Origin: Rhodocyclales bacterium
GTDB taxonomy: Bacteria; Pseudomonadota; Gammaproteobacteria; Burkholderiales; Rhodocyclaceae
Assembly: GCA_016183655.1 (NCBI GenBank)
Contig: JACPEH010000009.1
Coordinates: 62,001 to 126,000, forward strand
Reading direction: 5' to 3'
Length of the DNA: 64,000 nt
The position numbers and the translations under genes are program-made. Positions within the stretch are counted from its first letter, which is position 1. Every line of letters begins with the position of its first letter. Positions 14,310 through 53,606 of the stretch are shown here, in pieces. The notes beneath the pieces are model-generated. The model did no database searches and was not told the DNA's origin. It saw nothing but the letters and a program-made list of their open reading frames with translations.

Positions 14310-16850
14310 ATGAACCGGATGCTGGCGATGCCGGAGCTCTTGGCGATCTTCGACCACGCCCCGGTCGGCATCGTGCTCGTCCGCGACGGCATGCTCCAGC
14401 ACTGCAACCGGCGCTTCTGCGACCTGCTCGGCTACGCCGCCGACGAGGTCTTCGGCCAGCCGGCGCGCGTGCTCTATGCCAGCGAGGAGGAATATCTCCG
14501 CCTGCGCCGCTGGGCGCGGCGCTCGCTGCTCGCCGGCGATCCCTTCGACGTCGAGGTGCCGCTGCGCCGCCGCGACGGCCGCCTGATCTACTGCCGCCTC
14601 TACGCGGCGGCGATCCACCGCGAAACGCCGCGCGAAGGCACCATCTGGATCGTCGAGGACCTCGAAGAGCAGACCCGCATCAAGGACGAGCTGTGGGACA
14701 CCCAGCGCGACCTGGAAGCCACCTTCGCCGCCGCCCAGGTTGGCATCATGCTGCTGCGCGACCGCTGCATCATCCGCAACAACCCGCGCATGGAAGAGAT
14801 GTTCGGTTATCCGCCGGGCGGCATGATCGGCGCCTCGTCGCGCATCCTCTACATCTCCGACGCCGAGTTCGAGGCGGCCGGTGCGATCTACCCGGCGATC
14901 TCCGCCGGCGGCACGCACCGGCGCGAGCAATGGCTGCGCCGCCGTGACGGCAGTACCTTCTGGGCGCAGCTCAGCGGCCGCTTCGTCGACGTGCATCAGC
15001 CGGAACTCGGCTCGGTGTGGATCGTCGAGGACATGACCGAAAGGAAGCGCCAGGACGAGCGCCTGCAGGGCGCGCTGACCGAGCAGCGGATGATCTTCGA
15101 CAACGCCGCCTTCGGCATCACCTACGTCAACGGCGACCACCTGCAGCGCTGCAACCACCGCTTCGCCGGCATGCTCGGCGACACGCCGGAGGAGCTCGCC
15201 GGCCGGCGGGTGCAGGAGATCTTTCCCGACGATGACGCCTACCGCGAATTCACCGCGCAGGCGGAAAACGAGCTGCGCCGGCACGGCGCCTTCGTCGGCG
15301 AGACGCGGCTGCGGCGCCGCGACGGCAGCCTGTTCTGGGTGCGCGGCACGGCGCAGCGCGTGTCGTGGGAACAGGGCGGTGGCGCCATCTGGATCACCGA
15401 GGACATCACCGACCGCCGCCAGGCGCAGGAAGCGCTGCTGCGCGCGCACGAGGAGCTGGAGGTGCGCGTTGCCGAGCGCACCGCCGAGCTGGAGACGGCC
15501 AACGTCCAGCTGCAGTCGGAAATCTTCGAGCGCATGCAGGCCGAGGAACGTGTCTGGCACATCGCCCACCACGACGCGCTGACCGGGCTACCCAACCGCA
15601 GCCTGCTGCAGGACCGCCTGGCGCAGGCGCTGGCCGGCGCCGAGCGCGCCGGCAACCTGGTCGCCGTGCTCTTCCTCGACCTCGACCGTTTCAAGAGCGT
15701 CAACGATTCGCTCGGCCATGACGTCGGCGACGCGCTGCTGAAAGTGGTGGCGAGCCGCCTGTGCGGCGCCGTGCGCGACGTCGATACCGTCTGCCGGCTG
15801 GGCGGCGACGAGTTCGTCGTCGTCCTCGGCGCGGTCGGCGGCACCGACGACGCGGTGATGGTCGCCGAGCGCATCGTCGACGAACTGGCACGGCCGGCCG
15901 ACGTGATGGGCTATGCGCTGCGCGCCTCGACCTCGATCGGCATCAGCCTCTACCCGGACGACGGCCGCGACGCGCAGACGCTGATGAAGAACGCCGATAC
16001 CGCGATGTACACGGCGAAGAACCGCGGCCGCAACAATTTCCAGTTCTTCTCGCCGGCGATGAACGACGTCGCCACGCGCTTCTTCCGGCTGGAGCAGCGC
16101 CTGCGCCGCGCCGTCGAGCAGCACGAATTCGTGCTGCACTTCCAGCCGCAGGTCGATGTCGCGCAGCACCGCGTCTGCGGGCTGGAGGCGCTGGTGCGCT
16201 GGCAGGACCCGGAGGCCGGGCTGATCCCGCCCGGCGAGTTCATCCCGGTCGCCGAGGAGACCGGCCTCATCCTCGAACTCGGCGAATGGGTGCTGCGCGA
16301 AGCCTGTCGCCAGCTGCGTGCCTGGCACGATGCCGGCTGGCCGCAGGTGCCGATGGCGGTGAACCTGTCGCCGCGGCAGTTCCAGCAGGCCGACCTGGTC
16401 GCGCGCGTGCGCGCCATCCTCGACGAGACCGGCGTGCCGCCGGCGATGCTCGAACTGGAGATCACCGAATCGAGCCTGATGCACAGCGTCGAGGAAGCGC
16501 TGGCGCAGGTGCAGGCGCTCGCCGACATGGGCGTGCGCCTGGCCATCGACGACTTCGGCACCGGCTACTCCAGCCTCGCCTACCTCAAGCGCTTCCCGGT
16601 CAGCCGGCTGAAGATCGACCGCTCCTTCGTGCGCGACCTGTGCGACGACCGCGACGACGCGGCGATCGTCGCCTCGATCATCGGCCTGGCGAAAAGCCTG
16701 GCCCTCGAAGTCGTCGCCGAAGGCGTCGAGGCCGCGCCGCAACTGGACGCATTGCGCGACGAAGGCTGCCTGCTCTGCCAGGGCTACCTGTTCTCCCGGC
16801 CGCGGCCGGCGGAGGAGGTGGCCGCGATTTTTGCGGCGGGGGCGATTTGA
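14310..16850 (+). CDS. PAS-PAS-PAS-GGDEF-EAL c-di-GMP protein
   Basis: The 846-residue protein has no membrane helix. It carries three PAS domains (about 10-120, 130-245 and 250-370), a coiled-coil linker ([18 protein letters not shown]), a GGDEF domain and an EAL domain. The GGDEF motif is intact ([13 protein letters not shown]), with an RxxD I-site (RDVD) five residues upstream. The EAL catalytic motifs are also present: [36 protein letters not shown] and QGYLFSRP. The protein could therefore both make and break c-di-GMP, with direction set by the PAS inputs. The start is ATG 14310 behind AGGAGGAGACA. The 150-bp leader contains a hairpin (CACGGCGG at 14181 with CCGCCGTG at 14200). Confidence 0.94.
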
Positions 16851-16925: not shown

Positions 16926-17756
16926 ATGACGATGCCGTTTATCCGTACCGTGCTCGGAGGCTGCGCCGTCGTGTTCGCTTCGGTCGCGTTGTCCGGGGAG
17001 CCGGGCCCGTCGAATGCGGCGGCATTGAACCGGCCGGTCCTCGAATTCCATCAAGGGCAGTATTTCCGCTGGTCCGCGCCCCGAGGCTGGACCATGAACG
17101 AAACGACCAACGGCGTCGATCTTTTCGCGCCGGGCCGCGCCACCTTCGTTTCGAGCGCCCTCCTCGCCGGTGCTTTCGGCGACATGTCGCCGCAGCAGTT
17201 CCTGGCGATGACCCTGCGCCAGGTGAATCCGTCGGCGCGCGTGACGCAGACGCGGCGGCTCAAGGATCAGCCCGGAATCCTCGCTCCGTGGCGTGTCGAA
17301 GAGTACGAGATCGCCGCGACCCATCAGGGCATCCCGGTACGCATGAGTGCCACGGTCGGCGTCAGCTCGGCCTATGGCCGCTATTACGCGACGATGACCC
17401 TTTACCAGTCGCCCGCCAGCACTTGGGCGCAGGTCCGAACCTGGCTGCCGGCGGTGGCGCACAGCATCGTCGTCACCAATCCGCGTCAGGTCGCCGGGGC
17501 CGACCGCGTCATGCTTCCGCGCAACAATCCCCTCGATAACTCGGGCCTGATCGAGTCGTGGCGTCAGAAGGGGCTATCGGAAGATCGCATCTCGCAGGCG
17601 CGGCGGGAGGCGACGATGGGTTATGAACGCATGCAGGATCCGCAGACGGGGCGCAATTACAACATGCCCTACGAGACCTACGATGCGGGTGCGGGCGGCT
17701 ATCGGAACCCGATGCGGCGGAACGAGTTGTTGCACAAGGCCGGCCCCGGGGAGTAG
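16926..17756 (+). CDS. Hypothetical exported protein, 276 aa
   Basis: The family is not recognised. An N-terminal signal peptide (TMPFIRTVLGGCAVVFASVALSG) is followed by a soluble domain. Hydrophobic-strand patterns such as FRWSAPRGWTMNETTNGVDL and RMSATVGVSSAYGRYYATMTLY resemble the beta-rich PsbP/DUF1795-type fold. The C-terminal third is hydrophilic with Asn- and Arg-rich stretches. ATG 16926 is chosen for its upstream GGAAAAGG and position before the signal peptide; ATG 16932 is an alternative. It converges with the His-rich gene on the other strand. Confidence 0.6.
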   Translation: MTMPFIRTVLGGCAVVFASVALSGEPGPSNAAALNRPVLEFHQGQYFRWSAPRGWTMNETTNGVDLFAPGRATFVSSALLAGAFGDMSPQQFLAMTLRQVNPSARVTQTRRLKDQPGILAPWRVEEYEIAATHQGIPVRMSATVGVSSAYGRYYATMTLYQSPASTWAQVRTWLPAVAHSIVVTNPRQVAGADRVMLPRNNPLDNSGLIESWRQKGLSEDRISQARREATMGYERMQDPQTGRNYNMPYETYDAGAGGYRNPMRRNELLHKAGPGE

Positions 17757-17838
17757 CGGGGCCGGCATCGCCACCGTCGCTGGTGACGCCCCCCATGGGC
17801 GGATCAGTCCCTGCCTCTAGTGCTTCCCCGGCGTCGGC

Positions 17839-18273
17839 TTAATGATCCCGCCCATGATGACGCCCTCGGTCGTCGTCCCCCCGCCGATGGCGGTCGCCAC
17901 CGCGATGGTCGCGGTCGTACCGATCATAGTGGCCGTGCCGTTCGCGGTAGCTCGGCACATAGACGCGGTCATACCAACTGTTCTGCACGAAATAGACGCG
18001 CTCGCCGCAGGCGCCGTACTTGTGGCAGTGCTTGCCCCAGTGCTTGGCGTGTCCCGGAGGAACATGCAGGTAGATCGGCGGGCGATAGTAGGGGACGCGC
18101 TCGATCAGGACCGGTTGCGGATAAAGCAGGACCGGCCGCGGATAGCCGCCGATGTCGATCTGCCCGTAGAAGCCCGGTTGTCCGATGCTGATCGAGAGGC
18201 CGACGTCGGTGGCCTGCGCAGTGGTGCCCAGTGCGCCACCCAGTAGCAATAGCGTAAGCAGAATGCGTTTCAT
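17839..18273 (-). CDS. His-rich exported protein, 144 aa
   Basis: A signal peptide (MKRILLTLLLLGGALGTTAQA) precedes a domain with Tyr/Pro-rich motifs (PPIYLHVPPGHAKHWGKHC), a Cys pair (C-x-K-Y-G-A-C) and a C-terminal tail of about 35 residues rich in His, Asp and Arg. Similar short exported proteins are common in betaproteobacteria and lack a known function. Periplasmic metal binding is suggested by composition only. It lies 209 bp downstream of the NOD-like gene on the same strand, so readthrough from that gene is possible. Confidence 0.65.
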   Translation of the reverse strand: MKRILLTLLLLGGALGTTAQATDVGLSISIGQPGFYGQIDIGGYPRPVLLYPQPVLIERVPYYRPPIYLHVPPGHAKHWGKHCHKYGACGERVYFVQNSWYDRVYVPSYRERHGHYDRYDRDHRGGDRHRRGDDDRGRHHGRDH

Positions 18274-18482
18274 GATTCATGACTCCTGTTGCTGGTGTGT
18301 AGTTGGACAACGCCACAACGGGAATCTTGCCGACCACCAGGTGTAACAGTCTGTAAAACGCGTTACGAATCAAGCGGGGAGGGGTTCCGGCGGAAGCCGG
18401 TCGGCGGGGCCGTGCCGCGGCCCGGAGGGCGGGGAGCGTCGCCGCTGCCCGACACCTTCGTTACGGCGCCGCTCAAGCGCGC

Positions 18483-20828
18483 CTAGCCGCGGGTGGCCTG
18501 GCTGGCCCGGATGTCCTCGCACGACGAGCGCTCGTCCGTTTCCTGTACGGACTCGGGCAGCAGGCTCCCGGCTCTCGACAGCACGAACCACAGCAGCGGC
18601 AGCAGGCCGCCGAGCACGAACACCGCGCCGCCCAGCGAGCGGAAGGCGGTGAGCGTCCGGAACACGGTTCCTTCGACGATCTCCGCCGAGCGGGCGTACC
18701 AGAACCCTTTCTCGAACACGGCCAGCAGCTGGTAGACGCCGACCGGAAAGAGATCCAGGAACATCATCATCGCCAAGCCGATGTTGAGGGCCCAGAACGA
18801 CGTTCGCACCAGCTTCGCATTCCAGCGGGCCCGCGGGAAAAGGTGCTGGCAGCAGAACAGCATGCCGCCCAGCGCGATGTTGCCCTTCACCCCGAACATG
18901 GCGGCGTGGGCATGGTTGTTGGTGAGATAGGTCGCGTGCTCGAAGTAATTCACGATCGGCAGATTGATCAGCGAGCCGAGGACCCCGGCCCCGAACACGT
19001 TCCAGAAGTTCACGGCGAGGATGAACAGCCAGACCTCTCCCATCAGCACTTCCTGTTTGCCGCTGCGCAGGAAGGCCCGTGCCTCTCCCCCCTTCTGCCG
19101 CATCCCCCAGGCATCGAGGGTCAGGAGCAGCAAGGGCAGCACCTGGAGCGTGGAAAACACGCTGCCGAGCGCGATGATCCCGGTCGGCTTGCCGATCCAG
19201 TAGAAATTGTGGCCGACGCCGATGGTGGCCGTGAACAGGAACATCATCACGGCGAGAAAGATGGTGCGCTCGGCCATCACGCGCGGGATGAAGTTCATCT
19301 GCACCAGCATGTAGGCGACGATGACCGTGGTGAACACCTCGAAGGTCACTTCCACCCACATATGCACGACCATCCAGCGCCAGAAGTCGGCGACCGCGAA
19401 ATTGGTCTCGGGCGCCACGAAGAGGCCGAAGAAAAGGAAGAAGACCATGATGCCGCTGCCGTAGAGCAGCCAGGCCGGCACCGACCACAGGTTCCTGCGC
19501 GTCAGCCAGGGTTTCACGGCCCGGTAGATGATGAAGATCCAGAGGGCGAAGGCCGCCAGCAGAAGGATCTGGAAAGCGCGTCCGAACTCCATGAACTCCC
19601 AGCCCTGGCTGCCCAGCCAATAGGCCGCCTCGCCCGTGAGCAGCCCCTTCTGGCCGAGATAGATGCCGGCCAGCGAACCGACGCCGACGACCAGGCACAG
19701 GCTGAACAGGAGATCGATCAGGAAGCGCTGGCCGCGGGGAACCGGGGAGAAACGCGGCAGGAAGAAGAGGGTGTAGCCCACCCAGCACATGAAGAACCAG
19801 AAGATCTGGAACAGCGTGTGGTAGCTCCGCGCCACCGAGAACGGAACGAGGTCGCCGAGATAAAGACCGTAGGGGCGGACGAAATCGGTGGCGCAGAGGA
19901 TGCCCGCGACGATCTGCAGCCCGAACGACACCATGGCCAGCGCAAAGAATTTGTAGGTCGCCTGCTGCGTGCTGCGCACGATCCCGCGCTCGAGGTCCGG
20001 CGTCGTCAGCAAGCCGCCCTCGGCGCCGGCGTCGGTGAACGGCTCGGGGAAGATGACCTTCATCTGGCCATAGACGTAGAGGATCAGGCCGATGCCCAGG
20101 AACAGCACGAGGATCGACAGGATGCTCCAGATGTAGGTGTCCGCGGTCGGGGTGTTGCCGACGGCGGGATCGTAGGGCCAGTTGTGGGTGTAGCTGTAGT
20201 TCTCGCCGGGCCGCGCGGCCACCGCCACCCAGGCCCCCCAGAACAGGAAGGCCGACAGGCTGCGGATATCCTCCGCGCCCAGCGTATGGCCGAGCCGGAT
20301 ATGGCCCGGATACGCAGGATCGCCGAACACCCTCGCATAGTGCGTCTGCAGGCTCCGGTAGGCGTGAATCCGGGCCTCGTCGATCCTGACGTGGCCGGCG
20401 CCTTCGTCCCAGCCGTTGGCGCGGAGTTCGCGGGTCACGCGGGAGGCGATCGCGTCCTTCCCGTATTCGGTGAGCGCCCCGTCTGCCCGGGCTTCGTGGA
20501 AGGCCTGCATGGCCAGCATGTTCTGGCGCAGCGCGTCGGCCGTGAAATCCGGCCCCCGCTCGGCGCCATCGCCCCAGAACGATCCATAGGCCATCAAGCC
20601 GCGACGAAGGAAGACCTCCTGCCCGCGCTGGATTTCCTCCCGGGCAACGACCACCTCGCCGGCCGGCGAGACGAAGTCGGCCAGCGGCGGCGCGTGCGTG
20701 TAGGTGGTCCGGCCAAGGTAGAGCAGCCCCGCGATGCTGATGCCGGTGACGAACAGGAAGTAGAGCATCCAGTACTTCCTGTTCAGCAGCAGGCGCGCCA
20801 GGGCGGGTTGTCGTTCGGGGTGATTCAC
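18483..20828 (-). CDS. nod: qNOR-family protein with nitric oxide dismutase (NOD) active-site signature
   Basis: The 781-residue heme-copper-superfamily membrane protein has about 14 helices and an N-terminal periplasmic domain, like quinol-dependent NO reductases. The FeB-site region aligns with Geobacillus qNOR at a constant offset of 19 residues. H489 (H508), E493 (E512), E497 and H540 (H559) are kept. The third FeB ligand H560 is Asn (N541, in GVGHNFYWIG) and the second-shell Glu E581 is Gln (Q562, in FSTLQVLPL). The heme ligand motif NHAHAAMFG is intact. In the quinol site the H-x3-E-x3-F pattern reads H337-x3-Q-x3-F, and the Asp of the C-terminal RxPGD motif appears as Gly (FRSLGGAVF). 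The segment YTHNWPYDP has His where ordinary qNORs usually have Asn. The His-to-Asn change is the hallmark reported for NODs of Methylomirabilis and strain HdN1, proposed to turn 2 NO into N2 + O2. The GTG start at 20828 has GGAG eight bases upstream. Activity is not proven by sequence. Confidence 0.82.
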   Translation of the reverse strand: MNHPERQPALARLLLNRKYWMLYFLFVTGISIAGLLYLGRTTYTHAPPLADFVSPAGEVVVAREEIQRGQEVFLRRGLMAYGSFWGDGAERGPDFTADALRQNMLAMQAFHEARADGALTEYGKDAIASRVTRELRANGWDEGAGHVRIDEARIHAYRSLQTHYARVFGDPAYPGHIRLGHTLGAEDIRSLSAFLFWGAWVAVAARPGENYSYTHNWPYDPAVGNTPTADTYIWSILSILVLFLGIGLILYVYGQMKVIFPEPFTDAGAEGGLLTTPDLERGIVRSTQQATYKFFALAMVSFGLQIVAGILCATDFVRPYGLYLGDLVPFSVARSYHTLFQIFWFFMCWVGYTLFFLPRFSPVPRGQRFLIDLLFSLCLVVGVGSLAGIYLGQKGLLTGEAAYWLGSQGWEFMEFGRAFQILLLAAFALWIFIIYRAVKPWLTRRNLWSVPAWLLYGSGIMVFFLFFGLFVAPETNFAVADFWRWMVVHMWVEVTFEVFTTVIVAYMLVQMNFIPRVMAERTIFLAVMMFLFTATIGVGHNFYWIGKPTGIIALGSVFSTLQVLPLLLLTLDAWGMRQKGGEARAFLRSGKQEVLMGEVWLFILAVNFWNVFGAGVLGSLINLPIVNYFEHATYLTNNHAHAAMFGVKGNIALGGMLFCCQHLFPRARWNAKLVRTSFWALNIGLAMMMFLDLFPVGVYQLLAVFEKGFWYARSAEIVEGTVFRTLTAFRSLGGAVFVLGGLLPLLWFVLSRAGSLLPESVQETDERSSCEDIRASQATRG

Positions 20829-20850
20829 GGGGGAGACTCCATGGTCATGG

Positions 20851-20884
20851 GGGAGCGCCCGTATCGCAAGGCAAGGGCGCTCCC
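20851..20884 (-). other. Perfect hairpin in the leader of the NOD-like gene
   Basis: GGGAGCGCCC (20851-20860) pairs exactly with GGGCGCTCCC (20875-20884) around a 14-base loop, ending 23 bp before the GTG start. No T-run follows on either strand, so it may be a 5'-UTR structure or a weak terminator for the aldolase gene upstream. The rest of the 242-bp gap (20829-21070) has no clear FNR or NorR site; GATGTTCGG and TTTGATGTC near 20980-21000 are the only hints of a regulator site. Confidence 0.5.
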
Positions 20885-21070
20885 GCAGGCTTGGTTGGCA
20901 TGGTCGCGGCGCTGCTGGCCGGCGGCCAGGCGAGCGCGGGGAGGGTACCGGAGAACAGGCTGCCGGTCGATGGCGGACATCAAATTCCGAACATCTGCCT
21001 GCGACGTGCCGGCGAGGCGGTCCCGATGGTCTGCGCGATCGCGAGCGAGCTTGCTCGCCCCGGCGCCGGT

Positions 21071-21746
21071 TCAGGCCTGCTGCTGCCCGTAGCCGGCGAA
21101 TTTCTCCAGCACCGTCTGCATCTCGGCGGCGTCGAGCAGCACCGGTTGGCCCAGCTGGCAGGCGCGCCAGTATTGCTCGCAGAGCGCTTCCAGCTCGACG
21201 CCGAGGTCGAGCGCCTGCCGCAGGTCGCGGCCGAAGAGCAACATGCCGTGGTTGGCCAGCAGGCAGGCCGAGCGGCCGGCGAGCGCGGCCAGCGCGGCGT
21301 CGGAGAGTTCCTGCGTGCCGAAGGTGGCGTAGTTGGCGCAGCGGACGGTATCGCCGCCGAAGCGGGCGATCATGTAGTGGAAGGGCGGAATCTCGCGGCG
21401 CAGGCAGGCGAGGCTGGTGGCGAACGGCGAATGCGCGTGCAGCACGGCGCCGGCTTCCGGCCGCGCGGCGTAGAGGTCGCGGTGGAAGCGCCACTCCGAG
21501 GAGGGCTTGCGCGAATTCCCGTGCACTCCTTGGTGGCTGCCGTCGAGGCGCATGAAGACGATGTCGGACGGCGTCAGCGTCTCGTAATCCATGCCGGTCG
21601 GCGTGATCAGGAAGCCGTGCTCGCCGCCCTGGTCGACGCGCACCGAGAGGTTGCCGGCGGTGCCCTTGTTCAGGCCGGCAGTCGCCATGCGGCGGGCGGT
21701 GGCGATCAGTTCGGCGCGCGCTTCTGCGTGCATTCCTGCGTACCTC

Positions 21747-21754
<8 letters not shown>
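21071..21754 (-). CDS. Class II aldolase of the methylthioribose DHAP shunt
   Basis: The 227-residue protein belongs to the class II aldolase/adducin family. Zn-binding motifs are visible (LHAHSPF and NHGMLLFG) with GTAGNLSVR near the N-terminus. Because the coupled upstream gene is mtnA, the substrate is probably 5-methylthioribulose-1-phosphate or 5-deoxyribulose-1-phosphate. That gives either dehydration (MtnB) or cleavage to DHAP plus an aldehyde (the DHAP shunt). The sequence looks closer to fuculose-phosphate-aldolase-type members than to MtnB, and no mtnC or mtnD is nearby, so I favour the shunt. The start overlaps the mtnA stop by 8 bp. Confidence 0.78.
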
Positions 21755-22835
<1,081 letters not shown>

Positions 22836-22882
22836 GCCCGCCATTTTACAGTGACGGCTTCCTCTTTCCGTGCAGGTTCTCC

Positions 22883-53565: not shown

Positions 53566-53606
53566 AGGGTACGGCTTTGTGCGATCCCGTTTTTGATGTG
53601 GATCAA
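53566..53606 (-). promoter_or_regulatory. FNR-dependent promoter of the bacteriohemerythrin
   Basis: TTGATGTGGATCAA at 53593-53606 is an exact match to TTGAT-N4-ATCAA. Its centre is about 41 bp from the start point predicted by a -10 (TACCCT on the minus strand, 53566-53571), the position of a class II FNR activator site. A hairpin-forming CTTTTGC/GCAAAAG pair lies in the leader. Confidence 0.75.

Follow-up and report, generated by a model that had tools for sequence, protein, structure and literature searches.

A gene on the minus strand of the window (the whole stretch of 64,000 nucleotides analysed here) encodes a member of the nitric oxide dismutase (NOD) family, a homologue of the NO reductases of the qNOR type in which the third FeB ligand is an Asn, a nearby conserved Glu is a Gln and the quinol-binding residues are lost. 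We put at roughly 0.55 the probability that this gene was laterally acquired, is functionally maintained and specifies a protein that dismutates NO derived from cytochrome cd1 nitrite reductase (NirS) to N2 and O2, a reading that draws on sequence comparison. NODs are leading candidates for enzymes forming O2 from NO and, if the proposal is true, ordinary-looking denitrifiers could do without N2O as an intermediate and respire O2 of their own making. In the portions of Ettwig et al. (2012; PMC3413370) used here, NO dismutation is proposed for proteins with H560N, E581Q and loss of the quinol site, and putative NODs are described from 'Ca. Methylomirabilis oxyfera' (DAMO_2434, DAMO_2437), strain HdN1 and Muricauda ruestringensis. 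His560 is consistently Asn in nod according to an extract of PMC10286720, and passages of PMC13386854 describe the NOD enzyme as so far neither isolated nor characterised, with results both for and against dismutation.

The gene and its product

The reading frame (Table 1) runs without internal stop from a GTG codon preceded, 8 bases 5', by GGAG. Its product matches the Pfam COX1 (E 7e-50) and NorB cytochrome c-like (E 8e-45) domains, both far over the cut-off, and the closest solved structures by sequence are qNORs, with Geobacillus 3ayf first, so that the full-length qNOR homologue announced by the initial annotation was confirmed. Searches of the protein against the NCBIfam models and PHROGs gave no matches. 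An AlphaFold2 model built from 38 aligned sequences (this alignment alone excludes L047 and L061) reached a mean pLDDT of 82.9 and a pTM of 0.85, and a Foldseek search with this predicted model returned qNORs as the best PDB matches, with a TM score of 0.86 to 3ayf at 34% identity. The window protein thus has the fold, as predicted, and the cytochrome c-like domain of a canonical qNOR.

The window nod is under purifying selection: over the aligned length, dN/dS is 0.24 against L003 and 0.18 against L008, its two closest relatives, synonymous sites being saturated in the comparisons with L004 and L010. Ratios this low suggest that the gene is maintained for a functional product. Upstream of it the search for FNR-type sites was negative, and a loose match occurs in five of the 82 loci compared. 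A perfect FNR-type site, TTGATGTGGATCAA, lies elsewhere in the window at 53593-53606, between a hemerythrin-like gene and a GntR-regulator-like gene.

Table 1. Coordinates of the NOD-family gene, its diagnostic codons and its surroundings in the window
Feature	Position	Strand	Basis
NOD-family gene	18483..20828	minus	GTG at 20828, stop at 18483, 781 aa; domains, alignment, tree, model
Codon of Asn541, replacing FeB ligand His560	19206..19208	minus	alignment to 3ayf, residue number converted to coordinates
Codon of Gln562, replacing Glu581	19143..19145	minus	alignment to 3ayf
Codon of Gly734, replacing quinol-site Asp746	18627..18629	minus	alignment to 3ayf
Codons 314-318 (Thr314 to Arg318), replacing quinol-site His328 to Glu332	19875..19889	minus	alignment to 3ayf
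Stretch missing from the corresponding site of congener G053, which has 60 bp instead	18297..21063		blastn flanks 17837-18296 and 21064-21175
Class II aldolase (MtnB-like), adjoins the site in congeners	21071..21910	minus	domain scan, congener comparison
IF-2B family gene (MtnA-like), adjoins the site in congeners	21747..22844	minus	domain scan, congener comparison
PAS-GGDEF-EAL gene, also on this side of the site in both congeners (G053, G142)	14310..16850	plus	domain scan, congener comparison
Small unknown gene, opposite flank of the insertion; G053 has it at the site, G142 does not	17839..18249	minus	congener comparison

Active-site and quinol-site residues

Alignment to Geobacillus qNOR (3ayf) placed H489, E493, H540, N541 and Q562 of the window protein opposite H508, E512, H559, H560 and E581 at a constant offset of 19, as the initial annotation had it; the third FeB ligand His560 is therefore replaced by N541, and Glu581 by Q562. 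The C-terminal motif does read RSLGG, with Gly734 in place of the quinol-site Asp746, and the YTHN motif has His where Geobacillus qNOR has Asn and the qNOR of the same genome has Ser. One earlier assignment proved wrong: the quinol-site Glu332 is replaced by Arg318 and not by Gln. Since His328 is replaced by Thr314 as well, the loss of quinol-binding residues that characterizes NODs is represented here by H328T, E332R and D746G, and the canonical set of three His FeB ligands, Glu581 and the quinol site is absent from the protein. Besides the position of His560, five histidines are common to NODs and qNORs (H337, H489, H540, H639 and H641, window numbering).

Twenty-two alignment columns separate 87 NODs from 28 qNORs, a separating column being one in which one residue is found in at least 95% of the NODs and in at most one qNOR. 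These include N541, Q562, D87, K547, T560, N607, N627, Y634 and N650 (window numbering), and D87 corresponds to a His in 27 of the 28 qNORs. The separating columns are candidates for mutagenesis, with no mechanism attached to them.

A clade apart from the canonical qNORs

Genome contigs supplied 80 homologous loci, selected from 223 relatives, and further homologues came from 297 same-family genomes and from five plasmid qNORs; rows identical to the window gene or to the canonical qNOR of the host, L002 (L001, L115, L116), and rows of other than the qNOR/NOD type (L112-L114, L117) were dropped. The final alignment comprises 117 proteins, with Asn at residue 560 in 89 and His in 28. The Asn loci comprise 87 distinct sequences (L083 equals L003, and L084 equals L008), and one of them, L090, is a partial sequence that lacks the C-terminal site, leaving 88 readable at position 746. 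Residue 581 follows residue 560 strictly, being Gln in 89 of 89 Asn560 proteins and Glu in 28 of 28 His560 proteins. Residue 746 is Gly in 83 Asn560 proteins, Ala in five and a gap in one, and Asp in none of the 88 readable; all 28 His560 proteins have Asp746 and His328. His328 is no marker of the NOD family, since it is retained in 26 of the 89 NODs (19 of them Bacteroidetes by title). At residue 332 the NODs show no Glu, one Asp and nine gaps, and the qNORs 21 Glu and seven Asp. Across NODs, then, the quinol site varies more than the metal site.

The 89 Asn560 proteins form a single clade apart from the 28 His560 proteins (support 1.0, stem 0.53). The initial annotation had envisaged isolated changes inside the canonical qNORs as the contrary outcome, and the phylogeny gave the opposite of this. 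Active site, quinol site and tree agree on membership of the NOD family, and the changes seen in the window protein are family-wide and beyond chance. Within the clade, the window NOD groups with two Rhodocyclales/Rhodocyclaceae copies (support 1.0), to which it is 82% and 80% identical, and next come L004 and L010, whose MAGs bear the titles Oligoflexia and Bdellovibrionales (support 1.0); identity falls to about 43% for the lowest NODs and to 32-36% for the 28 qNORs. The tree takes in the Cecembia loci L062 and L073, M. oxyfera and HdN1 being left out, and Cecembia is named as a nod-containing genus in the text of PMC13386854 used here. The clade is tied to the named NODs through these loci and through the residues given in PMC3413370, so that the comparison with M. 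oxyfera and HdN1 is one by published description.

One of the six peptide patterns used for the contig search held the HN motif, which enriched the set for Asn. A motif-free search of the same-family genomes returned nine genomes matching at 45% identity or above, all of them Asn560, and among the matches at or below 38% identity the 21 loci read (L091-L111), together with the qNOR of the host genome, were all His560. The Asn/His split recurs, then, among the loci read in the motif-free search. In the same-family sample nine of 297 genomes have a NOD, and those of six genomes (L085-L090) belong to a second type with about 43-46% identity to the window NOD. Five of these six have common neighbour genes, one reading like MauG/cytochrome c peroxidase. 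Two different NOD genes (L029 and L030) occur in one Acidobacteria MAG (RIFCSPLOWO2_02_FULL_67_21). The NOD family is far wider than M. oxyfera and HdN1.

The insertion site and probable lateral transfer

In G053, a congener genome on a single contig of 3.98 Mb in which the NOD search found no match above 37% identity, the ten window genes flanking nod are kept in order at 78-97% identity and nod is missing. The predicted gene at 17094-17756 had no counterpart in this region of G053. In a second congener, G142, the corresponding region is without nod and without the small neighbour gene, and a nod is located on another contig (C26). The window nod thus sits by itself in an insertion about 2.8 kb long. 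Repeats at the insertion are short and mostly imperfect, the longest direct repeat being 31 nt at 74%, and insertion-sequence-like ends were not recognised. No plasmid-borne NOD was seen: all 317 of the 317 plasmid records matched below 60% identity, the 25 listed at or below 36%.

Identity of the window NOD is 82% to its counterpart in G095, a genome of another genus, and 80% to that of the congener G142. The reverse holds for a control helicase gene of the window, which is 63% identical to G095 (where the best match only was compared) and 94% identical to G142. As the NOD is slightly nearer to the other genus's copy, lateral transfer is likely; this comparison of 82% with 80%, set against one control gene, suggests that the window nod was acquired laterally, and we infer the direction of transfer.

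No shared neighbours accompany the gene in the loci compared: to the 40 largest gene clusters listed, the window contributed only nod itself and two other-frame artefacts lying over it, and of 48 window proteins compared by tblastn with L003, L008 and L139 the NOD alone matched. In a Pfam scan of 20 flanking frames none was tied to O2 use, and neither a partner cytochrome nor a methane monooxygenase was found among them.

NO, N2O and O2 genes of the host

The host genome is 88% complete, and its description as a betaproteobacterium is supported by the placement of the same-genus genome G142 in the Rhodocyclaceae. The nitrite reductase genes that the initial annotation had suggested seeking are present as two distinct cytochrome cd1 enzymes, L118 (C16) and L119 (C5:169380), along with NirF- and NirN-like proteins named from sequence. 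The host also encodes a canonical qNOR (L002), 36% identical to the window NOD and with all canonical residues present, and a Sec-type NosZ (927.7 bits against a cut-off of 625; TIGR04244 and TIGR04246 profiles) that we take to be of clade II; PF18793, used as a NosZ probe, matched neither the host nor the control. Terminal oxidases of the aa3 and cbb3 kind are present, their types being read from sequence.

Of the O2-dependent oxygenases that the initial annotation had also suggested seeking, three families were without match in the host, PF00848 (Rieske ring-hydroxylating dioxygenases; control positive in 4 of 14), PF00067 (P450; 7 of 14) and PF00487 (FA_desaturase/AlkB; 5 of 14), and PF02332 (soluble diiron monooxygenases) matched neither host nor control. 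The three unmatched families make a role in hydrocarbon activation, as proposed for HdN1, less likely.

Contig C1 of the host encodes a 496-aa haem-copper oxidase-like protein (L117:1450-2940) with GHVFIN in place of the GHPIVY of ba3 oxidase; the gene after it resembles SCO1/SenC. The protein presumably resembles the sNOR type and may be a third NO-handling enzyme of the host.

Proposed function and alternatives

These comparisons have led us to propose a model in which the window NOD would be a membrane-bound enzyme of qNOR fold, with an Asn as third FeB ligand, a Gln for the nearby Glu and no quinol site. NO would be supplied by the cytochrome cd1 nitrite reductases of the host and would bind at a site formed by haem b3 and a non-haem metal; as electrons from a quinol would be lacking, the two bound NO molecules would be rearranged to N2 and O2, and the O2 would most plausibly be used by the host's own terminal oxidases rather than by hydrocarbon oxygenases. 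We infer the haem and metal content, NO as the substrate and the dismutation step itself. Dismutation is the likeliest chemistry since the quinol site is lost and the metal site changed, as in the whole NOD family. Production of O2 by the host is possible on this reading, and use of any such O2 by its oxidases would be simpler than hydrocarbon activation. NOD would be needless for N2 production in this host, as a canonical qNOR and NosZ are present. The further proposal that a single laterally transferred nod, in a host with NirS, qNOR and NosZ but unmatched by the oxygenase families searched, feeds O2 from nitrite-derived NO directly to the host's terminal oxidases and so forms a one-gene module adding aerobic respiration under anoxia is a speculative one, which we consider rather doubtful.

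A less probable but serious alternative is that the protein is a divergent NO reductase, converting NO to N2O with electrons from a non-quinol donor such as a cytochrome and mainly removing toxic NO. The qNOR fold, E493 (Glu512) and the other histidines are all kept, as such an enzyme would have them, and the parts of PMC5723336 used here argue that nod-type genes are not all dismutases, tie them to N2O and report nosZ in some such genomes, as in our host. An Rrf2/NsrR-like regulator near nod in 22 of the 89 loci (L005, L007, L009, L025 and 18 Bacteroidetes) would fit a response to NO stress, though it is absent from the window. Against a reductase stand the loss of Asp746 in all 88 readable NODs and the replacement of Glu581 in all 89, residues that PMC3413370 connects with the binding of quinol and with catalysis, as well as the lack of a partner cytochrome among the flanking frames scanned.

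It is improbable that the protein serves only to sense, carry or buffer NO, or that it survives from the transfer as a relic with weak catalytic activity. Insertion of a single gene without partner genes would agree with this, as would the occurrence of a NOD in two of the seven genomes of the genus, where two of the five genomes without one are only 65% and 74% complete; the unbroken frame and the low dN/dS speak against it. A canonical qNOR whose active site differs by chance mutation or by sequencing error, a reading for which qNOR homology alone could be cited, has a negligible probability: the tree and the tabulated residues rule out isolated substitutions, the same changes are found clade-wide and the genome has a separate canonical qNOR. 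For the proposed one-gene respiratory module, the congener without nod at the same site (G053) provides a natural control; the stand-alone gene and this congener together allow a straightforward comparison, and the gene supplies a betaproteobacterial NOD for expression.

Comparison with known systems

In extracts of PMC13386854, nod is reported from 66 of 1,362 lake-sediment MAGs, almost two-thirds of the nod genes belonging to Pseudomonadota, the phylum of the window host, and including Burkholderiales. The Burkholderiales nods described there adjoin cytochrome c peroxidases and mau genes, a layout that recalls the L085-L090 type, whereas the window nod stands alone. Among the titles and abstract beginnings of literature on nitric oxide dismutase with Rhodocyclaceae or horizontal gene transfer, we found no nod insertion in Rhodocyclaceae. 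As the presence of nod in Pseudomonadota, including Burkholderiales, is already published (PMC13386854), what is added here is a well-marked nod insertion in Rhodocyclaceae.

Canonical qNORs (Geobacillus 3ayf and L002) share with the window NOD the fold, the cytochrome c-like domain, E493/E512 and five of the six histidines, but H560, E581, H328, E332 and D746 are all replaced in the window protein. The NODs of M. oxyfera, HdN1 and Muricauda, compared through the descriptions in the source text used, resemble it in H560N, E581Q, quinol-site loss, the qNOR fold and the remaining histidines. On the side of the differences, the window host is a Rhodocyclaceae denitrifier with a canonical qNOR and NosZ, and no methane monooxygenase was seen among the 20 frames scanned around its nod.
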